IMG/VR virus record: IMGVR_UViG_3300032246_000262 | Span: 1-22,966 of that record | DNA length: 22,966 nt | Source: a virus | Direction: 5' to 3' (one strand) | Shown: positions 14,927 through 22,227 of the stretch, piece after piece | Position numbering within the stretch: position 1 is the first letter of the stretch | How the letters are laid out: each line of letters begins with the position of its first letter | Program-made: the position numbers and the translations under genes | Notes under the pieces: model-generated | Databases searched by the model: none | Told to the model about the DNA's origin: nothing | The model's input: only the letters and a program-made list of their open reading frames with translations

Positions 14927-16438
14927 TTAAACTGTGTAATATCGTTCGGTTCTGCGGCCTTTGAAATACCTGACCTCTTCTTGCTCATCTGAATCTATTC
15001 CAATAAACCCGCCCTGCCGGTATCGAATCAGCGCCTGACTGGTTGAGTCAACAAGGTCATCGTTGTCGCCATAAGGAAAAGCTGCGAGTTCTTCCATTAA
15101 CTCATCAGCCCAGCGGGTTTCAGGACACCAGACCACGCCAGATGCAAACAGGTCTGATATCGCGTTTACACGCGCTATCTTATCGTTTCCTTTGCTTGGT
15201 GTGAACTCCTGTAAAGGGATTCCCATCATCCGAAGCTCATATATCAGCGGAGCGCCAGCCGCTTTCTTCTCAATAATCAATGTGTCTGGGTTCCATTCCT
15301 TCCACATCTCCATAGCTTTTTGTTTTAGCTCTGGAAACTCCATACGCTGTTTAAACGAGTCAAGAGCAATAATATTTGGCTTCAAATTACCCTGCGCATC
15401 GGGATGCTGAAAGACTCCCCACGTGGTGCAAGCTGAATAATCTGCGCGGTTGTTCTTTTCAAAGGCTGTGTCCCAGCTTTGTATCAAGTAATCACAGGGT
15501 GGGGGCGTCTCTTCAGTCCAGATTCTCCACATATCCCGCTTAATGATGGCGCTTTCATTGCCGGTTGGGTTTTGTTGGTACTGCGCTTCCCATTTAGCGG
15601 CAGGAATTTCAGCTTTAATGGCCTCAAGCTCTTCTTTTTTCCAAAATCCGGGCCATAAAGGAGTCCCTGACGGTAAAATCGCAGGAAATTCAATTACTTC
15701 CCAGTCGTTTACACCCTCTTTTTCCGAGTTTTTAAGGATCTGCCCGGTCAGATCTCGTTTAGACCAGCGCGTCATCACAATAATGATGGCCCCACCGGGT
15801 TGTAGACGCTGGCGAGGGCCTGATGTATACCACTCATAGACACCATCAAACACTGCGGGGTTGTTTTGTCTGGCTTCCTGCTCAGAATGCGGGTCATCAA
15901 TGATCAATACATCTGCGCCTTTACCAGTTACAGCACCACCAACGCCGATAGCAAAGTAATCTCCACCTGCGTCAGTGTTCCAACGTCCTGCGGCTTTTGA
16001 ATCTGACGACAACTTGGTATCAAAGATCTTTGAATACGCTTCTGAAGACACAAGATTCCTGACCTTACGACCAAAACCAACAGCCAACTCTGCGGTGTGG
16101 GCTGTCTGAATAATCTTCTTTGCAGGATATTTACCAAGAAACCACGATGGCAACAGATATGACGCAAACTCGGACTTTGTATGCCGAGGAGGCATATTAA
16201 TGATTAAACGCTTAAGCTGACCAGACGCTACACGCTCAAAAGCATCTGACATGATCTGATGATGTTTGCCTGAAATAAACCCGGGCCACATCTGCGTGAC
16301 GAAATACAGGTAGTTTTCCCGACAGCGCTCAATCCTGTCCAACTCCAATAACCTATAAACCTTGTTTCTCTCAGCTTCAGGCAATGTGTCCACAATGGAC
16401 AAATACTCACCAATTTCTGTTTTGGTCAGTAACGTCAC
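14927..16438 (-). CDS. terL: Terminase large subunit (ATPase-nuclease)
   Basis: The 503-aa protein starts with GTG at 16438, overlapping the upstream stop as GTGA. The ATPase domain has a Walker A-like PPRHTKSE at 83-90, Walker B DVLIIDDPHSE at 176-186, and a coupling motif VMTRW at 221-225. The RNase H-like nuclease has SWDTA at 321-325 (Asp323), LIIEKKAAG at 387-395 (Glu390) and DNDDLVDS at 458-465 (Asp461, Asp464). This is the motor that cuts and pumps DNA into the prohead, working with the small subunit and portal encoded on either side. Length and motif order are normal. One GTTTAAAC lies inside, read as Phe-Lys. Confidence 0.97.
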   Translation of the reverse strand: MTLLTKTEIGEYLSIVDTLPEAERNKVYRLLELDRIERCRENYLYFVTQMWPGFISGKHHQIMSDAFERVASGQLKRLIINMPPRHTKSEFASYLLPSWFLGKYPAKKIIQTAHTAELAVGFGRKVRNLVSSEAYSKIFDTKLSSDSKAAGRWNTDAGGDYFAIGVGGAVTGKGADVLIIDDPHSEQEARQNNPAVFDGVYEWYTSGPRQRLQPGGAIIIVMTRWSKRDLTGQILKNSEKEGVNDWEVIEFPAILPSGTPLWPGFWKKEELEAIKAEIPAAKWEAQYQQNPTGNESAIIKRDMWRIWTEETPPPCDYLIQSWDTAFEKNNRADYSACTTWGVFQHPDAQGNLKPNIIALDSFKQRMEFPELKQKAMEMWKEWNPDTLIIEKKAAGAPLIYELRMMGIPLQEFTPSKGNDKIARVNAISDLFASGVVWCPETRWADELMEELAAFPYGDNDDLVDSTSQALIRYRQGGFIGIDSDEQEEVRYFKGRRTERYYTV

Positions 16439-16665
16439 AGGGAAGCCATCTCTCTAACACTGCGATCCACAATTTTGATGGAATGGAACTTGTGTGGCTT
16501 TGTTGTAAGAAATCCGTCAGACTGTAATCTATGGATGATCCTATGGATATTTGCCTTTGACTTCATACCAAGACCTTTGGCAATAACTTCATAAGACGGC
16601 GCTATACCGTGGATACGAATGTAAGCCTTTACAAAGTCCAATACAAGTTGTCTGCGTGGTGTCAT
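16435..16665 (-). CDS. LexA-type winged-helix DNA-binding protein, 76 aa
   Basis: The sequence MTPRRQLVLDFVKAYIRIHG, then APSYEVIAKGLGMKSKANIH and RIIHRLQSDGFLT, closely follows the N-terminal DNA-binding domain of LexA (TPRQ..VL.FI..YI..HG..PS..EIA..LG..S...VHR....LE..G). The C-terminal self-cleaving peptidase domain of LexA is absent, so RecA-driven cleavage would not apply. The ATG at 16665 has no ribosome site ahead, and a candidate promoter ends six bases upstream, so the mRNA may be leaderless. It lies between the two terminase genes, an odd place for a repressor. It may control its own promoter and terminase expression. Confidence 0.8.
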   Translation of the reverse strand: MTPRRQLVLDFVKAYIRIHGIAPSYEVIAKGLGMKSKANIHRIIHRLQSDGFLTTKPHKFHSIKIVDRSVREMASL

Positions 16666-17682: not shown

Positions 17683-18050
17683 CAGCTTGTTATCTTATCC
17701 ACAAGTTGTTAATGTGGATAACTCACCGTTTCTGTGGACAACCCGCAGACCGCTGTGCATAACAACTTATCCACACTGGTATTGACCTTATCCACATGGG
17801 TCTAGGACGCATTTAAACACCCCTACAAGCGATTTTCTTTTTTACCCTCACCTACCCCTTACCTTTTGTTTTTCCCCGCCTTGCTGGTCGTTTTAAGCGT
17901 TTTAGAATACTTTCGTTATTTACCCCATAAAACTAAAACTTCAGTATACAAACTCTTAGAACCAGCACCAACATATAAGAATGTCTTGTAAATTCAAGCA
18001 CCCAAGTTAGTGAGTCTTCACTTCAACTATTTTTAACTTTTTTTGTGATC

Positions 18051-18084
18051 GTGTAAACGCATTATCCTCTCGTGCCGTTATAGT
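18051..18084 (+). promoter_or_regulatory. Candidate early promoter: GTGTAAAC-N20-TATAGT
   Basis: GTGTAAAC (18051-18058) lies exactly 20 bp before TATAGT (18079-18084). The same two elements with the same gap occur ahead of the SprT-like gene. No good sigma70 -35 is present, so the GTGTAAAC box may be the upstream contact of an activator or altered polymerase. A 7-bp inverted repeat (TAGTCCT 18081-18087, AGGACTA 18106-18112) overlaps the -10 and the ribosome site of the first plus-strand gene. Confidence 0.4.
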
Positions 18085-18117
18085 CCTGTTACCAACAACA
18101 TCACTAGGACTAGCATC

Positions 18118-18249
18118 ATGACCAAGACCCTCAAACAAGTTATCGAAGCCTTGCTTGCCCAAGGTTTCAACAAAGCCCAAGTGCTTGAGACCCTTGCCTC
18201 TGAGTACTGGGTTGACCAGTCTGTGACCCGTTTCCTTGCCTCTGTTTAA
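18118..18249 (+). CDS. Small protein, 43 aa, first gene of the plus-strand arm
   Basis: The ATG at 18118 is 8 nt after AGGA. The 43-residue product (MTKTLKQVIEALLAQGFNKA, then QVLETLASEYWVDQSVTRFL, ending ASV) reads as two or three helices without Cys. It is not in a family I know. Position just right of the origin-like region, behind a candidate promoter, suggests an early, possibly host-directed role. Its stop codon is the TAA inside a GTTTAAAC copy. Confidence 0.65.
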   Translation: MTKTLKQVIEALLAQGFNKAQVLETLASEYWVDQSVTRFLASV

Positions 18250-18274
18250 ACCAACCAACCCGAAAGGTATCACC

Positions 18275-18574
18275 ATGTCAACTACTACCGCAAACAAAAT
18301 GACCGCTTGGAAATTGGGCAGATATGCCACTGTTCAACTGATATCGGCGCAGTCTGCCTTTGCAGAAACACCAAGCTCTTACCAATGGAAGCAAACCCTG
18401 CGAGCCATGTTTGTGTACCAGCAAGTGCAATACCTGCTGTCCCGTGGTCTGCTGTTTAGGTTGGATGTATTGTGCGAGGAATTGACCGACTTGCCCCTCG
18501 AAAAATGGGATGACGCAATCAGCCTGTACAGCGTCAACATGACTGTGAGTGATGCCATTGCCGCCCACGCATAA
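18275..18574 (+). CDS. Hypothetical protein, 99 aa
   Basis: I choose ATG 18275 (MSTTTANKMTAWKLGRYATV), 7 nt after GAAAGG, instead of the in-frame ATG at 18236 inside the previous gene. The protein is mostly helical, with a hydrophobic middle (RAMFVYQQVQYLLSRGLLFR) and an acidic C-terminal third (VLCEELTDLPLEKWDDAISL). I recognise no family. It is followed immediately by the hammerhead ribozyme, whose stem begins one base after the stop codon. Confidence 0.65.
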   Translation: MSTTTANKMTAWKLGRYATVQLISAQSAFAETPSSYQWKQTLRAMFVYQQVQYLLSRGLLFRLDVLCEELTDLPLEKWDDAISLYSVNMTVSDAIAAHA

Positions 18575-18575
18575 A

Positions 18576-18627
18576 GCTTAACTGATGAGTCCTGATTGGA
18601 CGAAACCCCAGCGATGGGGTCTTAAGC
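18576..18627 (+). ncRNA. Type-I hammerhead self-cleaving ribozyme
   Basis: All core parts are present in order. Stem I: GCTTAA (18576-18581) pairs with TTAAGC (18622-18627). Core CTGATGA is at 18582-18588. Stem II: GTCC (18589-18592) with GGAC (18598-18601), loop TGATT. GAAA is at 18602-18605. Stem III: A plus CCCC (18605-18609) with GGGG plus T (18616-18620), loop AGCGAT. The cleavage base C is 18621, so the cut falls between 18621 and 18622. Every invariant hammerhead position is kept and all three stems are fully paired. Ends open at stem I, hence type I. The cut would leave the next mRNA with a 26-nt leader before the ATG at 18648. Hammerheads are known from phages and metagenomes; activity here is not shown. 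Confidence 0.9.
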
Positions 18628-18647
18628 AAATAACCGAAAGTACTAAC

Positions 18648-18851
18648 ATGAAATTTGTGCATCACTATACAGGCGAGTGGGTTCGCAGTAATGCGAATAC
18701 CTCAGCCTCACGCACCGATGGGTATGTGCGTGAATACAACTCCCTTGCGGAGATCGACAACGCGTTTGTGCGTTCCACGTTTGAGTGGATGGTGGAAATT
18801 GGCGAGATCGTCACTTCCAGCGGGTCTGACGTTTACCAAATTAGAGGTTAA
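18648..18851 (+). CDS. Hypothetical protein, 67 aa, downstream of the ribozyme
   Basis: The start is ATG 18648 (MKFVHHYTGEWVRSNANTSA), 7 nt after CCGAAAG. The in-frame ATG at 18585 lies in the CTGATGA core of the ribozyme and is rejected. The product has an early VHHY pair, then TDGYVREYNSLAEIDNAFVR and FEWMVEIGEIVTSSGSDVYQ. It looks like a small mixed alpha/beta protein. I know no family. It lies 2 nt from the next gene. Confidence 0.65.
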   Translation: MKFVHHYTGEWVRSNANTSASRTDGYVREYNSLAEIDNAFVRSTFEWMVEIGEIVTSSGSDVYQIRG

Positions 18852-18853
18852 CC

Positions 18854-19117
18854 ATGCAAAAACAAATGACTGCCAAATTCAATGGGCGCTGTGCTGTATC
18901 AGGCGTGGCGATCCGCAAGGGTGACTGGATCACCTACGACACCGTCACCCGCAAGGCATGGCTGTCCGAACATGACGACTGCCAAGTGTCGTTCAACGAC
19001 TACACCAACCGCCGTAACTACGTGTCGCACGTGTTCAACGTGGGCGGACAAGAGTTGTACCGCAACAAGGCAGGACGCTGTATCGATGCCCCCTGCTGTG
19101 GTTGCTGTACTGTTTAA
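18854..19117 (+). CDS. Small Cys-rich protein, 87 aa
   Basis: The ATG at 18854 has GAGG ahead. The first 45 residues (AKFNGRCAVSGVAIRKGDWI, then TYDTVTRKAWLSEHDDC) resemble small beta domains in phage proteins that start with GxCxxSGxxIxKGDxIxYD, often zinc-binding. The last twelve residues are CIDAPCCGCCTV, with Cys at 76, 81, 82, 84 and 85, a marked cluster. Metal binding is likely but unproven. The stop is the TAA inside a GTTTAAAC copy. Confidence 0.68.
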   Translation: MQKQMTAKFNGRCAVSGVAIRKGDWITYDTVTRKAWLSEHDDCQVSFNDYTNRRNYVSHVFNVGGQELYRNKAGRCIDAPCCGCCTV

Positions 19118-19144
19118 ACAAACCATAACCCTGAAAGAAAACTT

Positions 19145-19396
19145 ATGAACTACACCGACTTGAACCGCATCGCCACTGACAAAGTCAGCCGCTACACCCT
19201 CGCCCAATGCGAGTTTGCCATCGCCGATATTCATGCAACCCTTGCCCTGCATGAGCGTGACCTTGGTCACCCTTACGTGGCAAAGCTTTACGCCGAACTG
19301 GATGCAGTGCGTGACCGCCGCATGGTGTTGCAGTCCAAGACCCTGCGCCAACGCCGTGCCATCCGCTCTGCCCACGCTCTCATTGACTCACTCTGA
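19145..19396 (+). CDS. Small helical protein, 83 aa
   Basis: The ATG at 19145 has CTGAAAG ahead. The product (DLNRIATDKVSRYTLAQCEF, then AIADIHATLALHERDLGHPY, KLYAELDAVRDRRMVLQ) is almost fully helical and basic at the end. The pattern of a helical hairpin with PY at the turn is common in small phage proteins of unknown role. Its TGA stop is fused to the ribosome site of the next gene (TGAAAGG). Confidence 0.65.
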   Translation: MNYTDLNRIATDKVSRYTLAQCEFAIADIHATLALHERDLGHPYVAKLYAELDAVRDRRMVLQSKTLRQRRAIRSAHALIDSL

Positions 19397-19406
19397 AAGG
19401 AACATC

Positions 19407-19703
19407 ATGCAATTTTTTATCAATATGACTAAGGCGGACAACGTGATCCGCACCGCCCCTGCCATTGGAAAAATTAGCCTTGTGTTTAAACGCAATGCCC
19501 TGCGAGTTGAATTGTTTGACTACGGCACTCCGATGGGATGGGGTCATGACGTGCGCACAAGAGTCTTTTTGAATGGCACGGCTTTGCCTTTTGGGGCAGA
19601 GCAAATCCATCAGCGCAAACGCCCTGATTGGTTGCCCAGCGCAGTGACCATCGGCGATTGGAATCATGCGGTGAAATCAGCCACCCAATTAATCACACTT
19701 TGA
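19407..19703 (+). CDS. Hypothetical protein, 98 aa
   Basis: ATG 19407 (MQFFINMTKADNVIRTAPAI) follows TGAAAGG by 6 nt; the in-frame ATG at 19215 lies in the upstream gene and is rejected. The product looks beta-rich (KISLVFKRNALRVELFDYGT, then RVFLNGTALPFGAEQI) with a C-terminal helix. No family is recognised. The stop TGA is again fused to the next ribosome site. One GTTTAAAC inside is read as Phe-Lys. Confidence 0.62.
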   Translation: MQFFINMTKADNVIRTAPAIGKISLVFKRNALRVELFDYGTPMGWGHDVRTRVFLNGTALPFGAEQIHQRKRPDWLPSAVTIGDWNHAVKSATQLITL

Positions 19704-19714
19704 AAGGAAAAACC

Positions 19715-19867
19715 ATGTACTACATTCTTATGACACTCGCAAGCGCCGCATTTATTTTTGCTGGTGCGTCCAACATTGACGGCGGATATCTGTGGACTGC
19801 AATGCTTGCAGTTGGCGGATTCTTTTTTGGTCACGTGATGACCGAAGCTTTAAACGAGAGGGCTTGA
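19715..19867 (+). CDS. Small two-span membrane protein, 50 aa
   Basis: ATG 19715 follows TGAAAGGAAAAACC. The 50 residues comprise two hydrophobic stretches (YYILMTLASAAFIFAGA and LWTAMLAVGGFFFGHVM) joined by a short polar turn (SNIDGGY), then a charged tail (TEALNERA). It should sit in the inner membrane as a hairpin. Such proteins in phages may act in superinfection control or lysis timing; this is inference only. It is only 3 nt from the next gene. Confidence 0.65.
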   Translation: MYYILMTLASAAFIFAGASNIDGGYLWTAMLAVGGFFFGHVMTEALNERA

Positions 19868-19870
19868 ACC

Positions 19871-20059
19871 ATGAATCAATACACCGCCGTAGGCATCGCA
19901 GAGGGCTTTATCGATGCCGAATCAGAGGATCAATACTTTGCCGCTTGGCAGTATCTTGTTGATACAGGGCTTGCATGGCGCTTACAAGGATTCTTTGGAC
20001 GCACCGCCGCCGCCTTGATTGAACAAGGCTTGATCGAAAATAAATTTCAGCCCGTGTAA
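19871..20059 (+). CDS. Small hypothetical protein, 62 aa
   Basis: The ATG at 19871 follows GAGGG with 7 nt. The product (AVGIAEGFIDAESEDQYFAA, then WQYLVDTGLAWRLQGFFGRT, AAALIEQGLIE) is helical and acidic at the start. The stretch W.YL..TG....L.G...R.A..LI..G.I looks like small conserved phage proteins, with no function I can name. It ends Val-stop as GTG TAA AC, a GTTTAAAC variant that also forms the upstream part of the next promoter. Confidence 0.68.
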   Translation: MNQYTAVGIAEGFIDAESEDQYFAAWQYLVDTGLAWRLQGFFGRTAAALIEQGLIENKFQPV

Positions 20060-20087
20060 ACCAACTGCTAGTGAAATGCGTTATACT
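20054..20087 (+). promoter_or_regulatory. Candidate promoter of the SprT-like gene: GTGTAAAC-N20-TATACT
   Basis: GTGTAAAC (20054-20061) is 20 bp before TATACT (20082-20087), the same layout as at 18051-18084. A perfect 10-bp inverted repeat (20067-20096) covers the -10. The leader that follows contains ACCAACA, as does the leader of the first plus-strand gene. Confidence 0.42.
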
Positions 20088-20096
20088 TTCACTAGC
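20067..20096. promoter_or_regulatory. Operator-like inverted repeat over the -10 box
   Basis: GCTAGTGAAA (20067-20076) and TTTCACTAGC (20087-20096) are perfect 10-bp arms with a 10-nt spacer that holds TTATAC. As DNA it could be a repressor site that hides the -10; as RNA it could fold as a hairpin only if transcription starts further upstream. Confidence 0.6.
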
Positions 20097-20118
20097 ACCA
20101 ACAAACCGAAAGAAAATC

Positions 20119-20706
20119 ATGACTAATTTTCAAACCCGTGAAGAGTGGCTACAAGCTGGGGTCAGCGAACTGCGCACAAGCTTTGACCTGACTGGTCGCC
20201 CTTTGCCCAAGCGCATACGTGTGGCTTGTGGTTTCCCCTTGAATGCCAAGCGCAGTAAGGCAATTGGCGAATGCTGGGCATCGGATAACAGCGCAGACAA
20301 GACCATTGAGATCCTGATCAGCCCAACCATCGCTGACCCCATTGACGTGTTCGCAGTGCTGGTGCATGAGTTATGCCATAGCACCAGCGGGGCGATGAAT
20401 CACGGCGTGAACTTCCAAAAAGCCGCCGCCGCCATGTTGCTTGAACCCACTGGTGACCCTGCCGCAAAGAATGCATGGAAGTCAACCCGTGGCACAAAAG
20501 AATTCGCCACTGCCTACGCTGGACTGATCGCAGGGTTGGGTGCATACCCACACGGCGAACTGTCCTACTCTGACCGCAAAGTCCAAGGGACACGCATGAT
20601 CAAAGCTTCATGCCCTGCCTGCGGATACACCGTACGCCTGACAGGCAAATGGTTAGCGCAGGGTCTGCCAATCTGCCCTACAGATGGCGAAACATTTACC
20701 GTTTAA
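20119..20706 (+). CDS. SprT-like zinc metallopeptidase, 195 aa
   Basis: ATG 20119 lies after ACCGAAAG; the in-frame ATG at 20071 lies in the promoter and is rejected. The active site is VLVHELCHS: HExxH at 83-87, with NHGVNFQ giving the likely third zinc ligand His95. A C-terminal zinc-ribbon-like piece (CPACGYTVRL at 165-174 and Cys186) completes the SprT-like form. Cellular SprT/Spartan proteins cut proteins cross-linked to DNA; a phage one may clear proteins from replicating DNA, which is inference. It is followed by the ATPase gene after 18 nt. Its stop is in a GTTTAAAC copy. Confidence 0.82.
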   Translation: MTNFQTREEWLQAGVSELRTSFDLTGRPLPKRIRVACGFPLNAKRSKAIGECWASDNSADKTIEILISPTIADPIDVFAVLVHELCHSTSGAMNHGVNFQKAAAAMLLEPTGDPAAKNAWKSTRGTKEFATAYAGLIAGLGAYPHGELSYSDRKVQGTRMIKASCPACGYTVRLTGKWLAQGLPICPTDGETFTV

Positions 20707-20724
20707 ACATTCCGAAAGAACACC

Positions 20725-22227
20725 ATGCCAACTCTAGACCTCAAAGCCGTGCAAGTTGAAATCTCCCGCCTTGGTAGCGCAACCATCACTGGTGCGTACA
20801 GACAGTTGTACAACCAAGACCCGCCCGACATGAAGCAAGCCATTACCCGACTGTCAATGTCGGTTGCGGTCGATGGCGTGACAATGGATACCATCCGAAA
20901 CGCCACGCCTATGAAAGGCATCAACATACAAAGCGCAGGACAATCACAAACAAGCGTTTCGGGTAATTCAACCGCATCAATCCAAGCACTGCAAGCCACT
21001 GCCAATCGGGCGATGGATACCGCCTTGGATGCCAATGCCTTGTCAAAAACAAACAATACGGGGCTGACTGATCTTGCCACACGGGTCAGCACTGTTGCCG
21101 ACATGGCAATAGAAAATTGCGACAAGCTGGTCAAGCTTGAGCGATCCATAAGCCAAAAGCTTGGCGAGGTAAAGGGCGAGGTTGATCCCGTCATCCTGCA
21201 AGCCCAAGTCGCCAAGGCGGTCGCAGACACGTTTGCACCGTTTAAACAGGCTGTGCAACCCGAAATGATGACTGTACTTGCTGAGGATGCTGGGGTTTAC
21301 GTGACTGAAACCAAATCGGTGCGTGAAGTATTCGGTGTTGACGCACGTGACGTGCATGGCAATGTGCTGACTGTGGACGTGTGGAATCACCCAAATACCC
21401 CTGCGATTGACCCCAACTTTATTTGGACTGTTCCGATCTTGCGTCAATTGCTGTTGTCTCAATCAACGGGCGAACACTTGTGGTTTGGCGGTGAAAAGGG
21501 TACGGGTAAGAGTGAAACAGCCCGTCAGTTTGCCGCTCGCACGGGTCGCAATTACGTGCGGATCAACTTTCACAAATACACCACAGCAGAGGATTACTTG
21601 GGCGCAGTGGGCTTGGTTAACGGCGAGACGGTGTTTCAGCCCAAGGATTTTCTGATGGCTTACACCTCACCCAGCACCGTGATTCTGTTGGACGAGGTCA
21701 CCAACGCTGATGCTGGAGAGTTAGCCCCGCTCAATGGTTTTCTTGAGCCTAACAGTGCCGTGTCCTATGGTGGTGCTGTGCGCCGTAAAGCCAACGGGGT
21801 GCTGGTGTTTGCCGCTGACAACACCTTGGGCAACGGCGATGACTCAGGACGTTACGCTGGTACACGCACCATGAACAGCGCATTGGTTGATCGCTTTGCC
21901 CGTATCGTTCACTTTGAGTATTTGCCCTTGGCGCAAGAGGTCGAGGCTGTGGTGCGCCACACGGGTTGCACTGAGGATCTTGCAAGGCACGTGCTGAAAG
22001 CCGTTCATGTTGCCCGATCCAAGGTCAGCACGGGCGATATCGTGGATGCCCCGTCCATCCGCTCAGTGATCGGTTTTATTCGGGCATTGAAAGTGCTGAA
22101 TGTTGATACTGCATGGGCGAGCGCAGTGGTCAACCGCCAACCGTCAGAGTCCCATGCCGCATTGGCGAGTGTCTTTGCCGCTTGCATTGACCCTGACTAC
22201 ATCAACAAACAATTGGGAGGTGTTTAA
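20725..22227 (+). CDS. MoxR/CobS-like AAA+ ATPase, 500 aa
   Basis: ATG 20725 follows TTCCGAAAG. Residues 1-230 are an extra part: a short N-terminal helical piece, a polar Ser/Gln/Thr stretch (about 70-90) and a coiled-coil-like stretch (about 115-170). The AAA+ core has Walker A GGEKGTGKS at 255-263, Walker B VILLDE at 319-324, sensor-1 Asn366 (FAADN) and arginine-finger candidates Arg390 and Arg393 (LVDRFARI). The set is that of the MoxR/CobS/CbbQ group, which remodel protein complexes with a partner that carries a VWA domain. The partner is probably the next gene. The stop is in a GTTTAAAC copy; another copy lies inside, read as Phe-Lys. Confidence 0.85.
   Translation: MPTLDLKAVQVEISRLGSATITGAYRQLYNQDPPDMKQAITRLSMSVAVDGVTMDTIRNATPMKGINIQSAGQSQTSVSGNSTASIQALQATANRAMDTALDANALSKTNNTGLTDLATRVSTVADMAIENCDKLVKLERSISQKLGEVKGEVDPVILQAQVAKAVADTFAPFKQAVQPEMMTVLAEDAGVYVTETKSVREVFGVDARDVHGNVLTVDVWNHPNTPAIDPNFIWTVPILRQLLLSQSTGEHLWFGGEKGTGKSETARQFAARTGRNYVRINFHKYTTAEDYLGAVGLVNGETVFQPKDFLMAYTSPSTVILLDEVTNADAGELAPLNGFLEPNSAVSYGGAVRRKANGVLVFAADNTLGNGDDSGRYAGTRTMNSALVDRFARIVHFEYLPLAQEVEAVVRHTGCTEDLARHVLKAVHVARSKVSTGDIVDAPSIRSVIGFIRALKVLNVDTAWASAVVNRQPSESHAALASVFAACIDPDYINKQLGGV

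Follow-up and report, generated by a model that had tools for sequence, protein, structure and literature searches.

A candidate type I hammerhead ribozyme at a gene junction of an uncultured phage and the viral sub-class around it

Between two small protein genes of an uncultured virus lies a 52-nt motif that resembles a self-cleaving RNA. Is it a hammerhead ribozyme, to which relatives does it belong, and what could it do at a gene junction? The window analysed here, 22,966 bases, is one uncultured virus record from IMG/VR. A first-pass annotation had placed a complete type I hammerhead at this site.

The motif and its gene junction

The motif reads GCTTAA CTGATGA GTCC TGATT GGAC GAA ACCCCA GCGA TGGGGT C TTAAGC, and its parts are located in Table 1. 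Both core elements of a type I hammerhead, CUGANGA and GAAA, are present, the A15.1-U16.1 pair is formed by A18605 and U18620, and the H at position 17 is C18621. Three stems of 6, 4 and 6 bp are arranged round the core, with stem I open, and covariation is seen in all three. The minimum free energy structure of the RNA is the hammerhead fold itself (-19.4 kcal/mol, z = -3.7). The full core claimed by the first-pass annotation was borne out, with all core bases at 18582-18588, 18602-18604, 18605-18620 and C17. Its stem lengths of 6/4/5 were correct for stems I and II, whereas stem III, capped by a GCGA tetraloop, has 6 pairs in place of the 5 given.

Evidence from related sequences comes from A1, a gapless alignment of 64 sequences that includes the window motif. 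Double changes occur in 14 of its 16 pairs (3 of 4 in stem II; for the other stems see Table 1), and 99.9% of the cells are paired. The covariation score is 0.864, versus 0.163 for shuffled and at most 0.10 for slid alignments; covariation weighs more than the percentage paired, because the scanner pre-selected pairing. Model R1 gives the window motif, one of its 64 training sequences, 82.8 bits. As a chance level, the structural scanner, which is laxer than the window motif, made 3 matches in 400 Markov-shuffled windows. Sequence, covariation and relatives together give good support to the assignment of the motif as a hammerhead ribozyme, to its type I topology and to the predicted cut at 18621/18622.

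The placement given earlier also holds: stem I starts one base past the upstream stop codon (TAA at 18572-18574), and the predicted cut falls 26 nt ahead of the next start (ATG 18648). Neither the 99-aa upstream protein nor the 67-aa downstream protein has a PHROG or Pfam match, and the label "early" for these genes is deduced from gene order. The junction showed neither an intrinsic terminator nor a sigma-70 promoter, and the record holds a single ribozyme copy. GAAAG(G) recurs ahead of small rightward genes (about 18261-18267, 18636-18640 and 19133-19138) and may be the Shine-Dalgarno variant of this phage.

Elsewhere in the window, a 500-aa MoxR/AAA_5-type ATPase is encoded at 20725-22227 (PF07728, 6.7e-15; PHROG 249), preceded at 20116-20706 by a weak, sub-threshold SprT-like metallopeptidase match. 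A small gene on the minus strand (16435-16665; product 76 aa, LexA-type DNA-binding domain, 2.7e-10) immediately precedes the large terminase gene, which has the same orientation.

Table 1. Positions of the ribozyme, its parts and neighbours in the window, and of members in named phages (positions in the respective genome).
Feature	Position	Strand	Evidence or remark
Type I hammerhead ribozyme	18576-18627	+	Rfam Hammerhead_1 27.5 bits, MFE fold, model R1
Conserved flanking A, -1 of stem I	18575	+	A in 213/214 UNA-loop copies
Stem I, 5' strand GCTTAA	18576-18581	+	Pairs with 18622-18627; 6/6 pairs covary in A1
Catalytic core CUGAUGA (DNA CTGATGA)	18582-18588	+	Sequence
Stem-loop II, GUCC-UGAUU-GGAC	18589-18601	+	Loop 18593-18597, UNANU class
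Core GAA	18602-18604	+	Sequence
Stem III, 6 bp ACCCCA/UGGGGU, GCGA (GNRA) tetraloop	18605-18620	+	Fold; 5/6 pairs covary in A1
Predicted cleavage, C17 (18621) / U (18622)	18621-18622	+	Homology to hammerhead core
Stem I, 3' strand TTAAGC	18622-18627	+	Covariation in A1
Conserved flanking A+1 and A+2 after stem I	18628-18629	+	91% and 72% A among 235 listed copies
Upstream gene, 99 aa, no known family	18275-18574	+	Precedes ribozyme also in L122 and L197
Predicted 26-nt leader of downstream mRNA	18622-18647	+	Weak GAAAG Shine-Dalgarno-like motif 18636-18640
Downstream gene, 67 aa, no known family	18648-18851	+	Relatives in 9 viral loci
Member in Agrobacterium phage OLIVR1	3954-4017		R1, 51-55 bits range
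Member in Flavobacterium phage elemoC	16944-17015		R1, 51-55 bits range
Member in Pelagibacter phage Jormungand	38213-38287		R1, 51-55 bits range

Relatives and their coverage by Rfam

A default Rfam scan of the window returned nothing above the gathering scores. Hammerhead_1 (RF00163) matches the motif end to end with 27.5 bits against a gathering score of 34 (E = 4.7e-5 on 201 nt, and 1.3e-6 when the whole record is searched). A covariance-model match over threshold, the check named in the first-pass annotation, thus literally failed; the gathering score is a library threshold, not a biochemical criterion. The low score reflects poor coverage of such ribozymes by Hammerhead_1: the scanner and model R1 detect at least 24 sisters in 15 further viral loci, and not one of these lies above its gathering score; the best values seen later among sisters were 31.4 and 28.8 bits. 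Over the records of the relatives Hammerhead_1 gave no match at E 0.001, which is a limit of that model, because R1 detects their ribozymes.

With Hammerhead_1 the window motif shares the core, the three stems, the open stem I and the UH cut site, whereas its class has a 6-bp stem I without internal or closing loop, an A on either flank and a UNANU loop II. The RAGATH-1 hammerhead (RF03152) likewise has a type I core and an A-rich 5' flank, but its matches are weak (23.9 bits for the window motif, 30.4 bits for L257), far under the gathering score of 56.3, and no conserved hairpin was found upstream in the window's class.

A blastn search with window positions 17900-20800 against 50,697 phage records gave no match. 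In the nearest relative, locus L122, the ribozyme is identical to the window's at 46 of 52 positions. A free core position changes from U to C, one loop base is changed, and stem II carries two compensatory pair changes, U-A to C-G and C-G to G-C. An ortholog of the 99-aa gene (55% at the amino acid level) is followed at once by this ribozyme, and then by a gene unrelated to the window's downstream gene. In L197, too, a relative of the upstream gene (30%) precedes a ribozyme, so that the three loci combine a common upstream family with three different downstream genes. The reverse is found for L122 and L177, which have a common downstream gene and unrelated upstream genes; their identity is 0.96 in the ribozyme versus 0.27 in the 60 bases upstream. 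L123-L125 hold hammerheads with other stems, ahead of another small gene that is orthologous to window 19706-19867. In L126-L130 and L132 no hammerhead was found. Since L132 has related flanking genes, with neither the 99-aa gene nor a ribozyme, the ribozyme is dispensable.

A phage sub-class and its junction geometry

Two pattern scans of IMG/VR gave at least 120 and at least 119 stretches, and the structural scanner recognised at least 303 distinct type I copies in the matches listed. A 13-nt stem-loop II is present in 235 of the 303, with a UNA loop in 214 of those. In this UNA-loop class, the 6-bp stem I ends in G-C in 201 of 214 copies versus 32 of the 89 other listed type I copies (p = 5e-26). 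The base at -1 is A in 213/214 versus 49/89 (p = 7e-24) and that at +1 in 198/214 versus 44/89 (p = 4e-16). These copies are related by descent, so that their counts are not independent and the p-values overstate significance to an unknown extent. Loop frequencies are biased, because TGATK in loop II was a fixed part of the second pattern; in the first scan set alone, TNANT loops are again commonest and A-1 occurs in 39 of 44 copies among the matches listed. Beyond A-1 the 5' flank is not conserved in the listed copies, and a distal extension of stem I past the A flanks has no consistent pairing excess over shuffles there.

The sub-class is thus defined by an open, 6-bp, G-C-closed stem I with A on both sides and a UNANU loop II. 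The UNA loop co-occurs strongly with A-1 and with the G-C end, the p-values above ignoring kinship. Judging from the sequences, the flanking A bases probably dock onto loop II and hold the open stem I against stem II.

In 257 billion bases of cellular genomes a similar, slightly stricter pattern found four loci only, two of them real by R1, so the sub-class is mainly viral. By R1 it includes the members in OLIVR1, elemoC and Jormungand (Table 1), which come from other phage groups, differ in stem III length and are in no case annotated as ribozymes; an uncultured Pelagivirus has two members. A match in Pseudomonas phage PA26 was discarded as not being a ribozyme (0 R1 matches). In elemoC (L256 1162-1269, minus strand), the antisense coding sequence elemo141A_phanotate42 is annotated over the ribozyme and is probably spurious. 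L017, L022 and L046 represent a separate group of phage type III hammerheads near gene junctions, often repeated per contig, with stem II loops mostly such as AAAA, GAAA and TAAA.

A tie to one gene family was rejected, as the 267 upstream proteins among the matches listed fall into 201 clusters. What recurs is the position. Both neighbours are co-directional with the ribozyme 204 times and both opposite 7 times among the matches listed; antisense ORFs "inside" ribozymes were taken as spurious calls and left out of this count. The upstream stop ends at 0, +1, +6, +10 or +20 of stem I in 197/280 listed copies, where it makes use of the flanking A, of the A-G step (TAG), of a TAA ending stem I, or of the TGA found in CUGA or in loop II. 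All three reading frames can therefore be stopped by the ribozyme, and the ribozyme-encoded tails QDN and RTTDEA are common to unrelated upstream proteins. From cut to ATG, 214 of 289 listed copies with an ATG span 20-32 nt, with a peak at 26. An upstream stop at -4 to +21 together with an ATG at 20-32 nt was found in 184 of 317 listed copies (58%), versus 1.2% of random positions on the same strand. Where a phage carries 3 to 8 copies, neighbouring copies are separated by one to a few small genes. In L252 (IMGVR_UViG_3300005528_000090, C1:8200-11096), R1 finds eight hammerheads between small genes in about 3 kb.

The prophage and phage hammerheads of Perreault et al. 2011 (PMC3088659), as treated in its main text, likewise separate small phage genes, and one genome often has several of them; the emphasis there was on type II and stem I-II pseudoknots. 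Neither the A-flank/UNANU class nor the stop/start geometry appears in the main-text sections of that paper considered here. Set against the main text of earlier surveys, the anatomy of the sub-class is likely undescribed, although we claim no novelty for it, and the geometry at the junctions and the gap in Rfam coverage are apparently new.

What the ribozyme may do between genes

We consider it most probable, at roughly 70%, that co-transcriptional self-cleavage yields a gene-length mRNA on each side, with stability and translation set separately. The ribozyme sits between two cistrons within a run of small, rightward-pointing phage genes. During synthesis of the polycistronic mRNA the motif would fold and, by homology, cut after C18621. 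A 2',3'-cyclic phosphate, preceded by the stem II-III structure, would terminate the upstream mRNA; the downstream mRNA would begin with a 5'-hydroxyl and a leader of 26 nt, roughly as far as one 30S subunit reaches upstream. Gene-length mRNAs would thus arise on either side, with a presumed effect on expression. The first-pass annotation had suggested such a split with a 5'-hydroxyl leader, and this is still the best explanation: the position in hundreds of phage copies is in agreement with it, and the remainder we infer.

Cutting of phage transcripts into operon- or gene-length mRNAs was proposed already in 2011 by Perreault et al., in whose main text (PMC3088659) cleavage is reported for phage-type hammerhead arrays in vitro and for an Agrobacterium array inside E. 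coli. The same text describes HHphage of haloviruses HF1/HF2, a hammerhead that lies 13 nt ahead of the start of a phage gene and close to whose cut site the 5' end of a transcript was mapped; it differs from the window ribozyme by an altered core with insertions and by belonging to an archaeal virus. An invariant core and compensatory stem changes suggest that both the RNA structure and catalysis are under selection. Against the preferred explanation stand the weak downstream Shine-Dalgarno motif, the lack of the ribozyme in L132 and a stem I without the classic docking loop or internal loop, and it also counts against it that 4 of 18 consensus-conforming hammerheads were inactive in vitro according to the main text of Perreault et al. 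(PMC3088659).

The overlap with stop codons suggests that terminating ribosomes could delay ribozyme folding. It is conceivable, though we think it unlikely, that this amounts to a translation-gated switch, in which terminating or initiating ribosomes block folding and only poorly translated mRNA is cut. The 197 copies counted above, whose upstream stops fall in the flank or within stem I, CUGA or loop II, would fit, as would the window's own stop one base ahead of stem I and leaders clustering at 21-28 nt in the listed copies, by which the next 30S footprint reaches the 3' strand of stem I. Yet compact genomes and built-in three-frame stops could yield the same overlap without regulation.

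Early stem-loop cassettes of T4-like phages offer a parallel for a different reading at the DNA level, namely a homology linker for the exchange of small genes, with cleavage incidental. Near-identical ribozymes do join different genes, as in the window, L122 and L197 and again in L122 and L177, and the many upstream protein clusters would be expected; we nevertheless hold this improbable, as compensatory stem changes, an invariant catalytic core and copies that differ in their stems inside one genome all speak against it. Excision of a self-circularising or retrozyme-like RNA between two hammerheads is very improbable: tandem same-strand copies do occur in other phage contigs, but the 22,966-base record has one copy where two are needed, the segments between copies elsewhere are coding, and circular products were looked for and not found according to the main text of Perreault et al. 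(PMC3088659). That the motif is a chance or decayed, inactive one, as its score under the Rfam gathering value might suggest, is scarcely credible in view of E 1.3e-6, the compensated structure in L122 and hundreds of sisters.

Returning to mRNA cutting as the preferred reading, a wider version can be formulated only tentatively. A widespread and hitherto overlooked phage type I class may act as an all-in-one gene joint, combining compact A-flank/UNANU docking, three-frame stops, an mRNA cut and a leader of about one 30S footprint, with cleavage timed by terminating and initiating ribosomes.

The role of hammerheads in phages has been an open question since 2010-2011, and the blind spot of Rfam means that such ribozymes stay unannotated in phage genomes. 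The tight geometry of the sub-class and its members in cultured phages bring the idea of mRNA processing within direct reach of 5'-end mapping.
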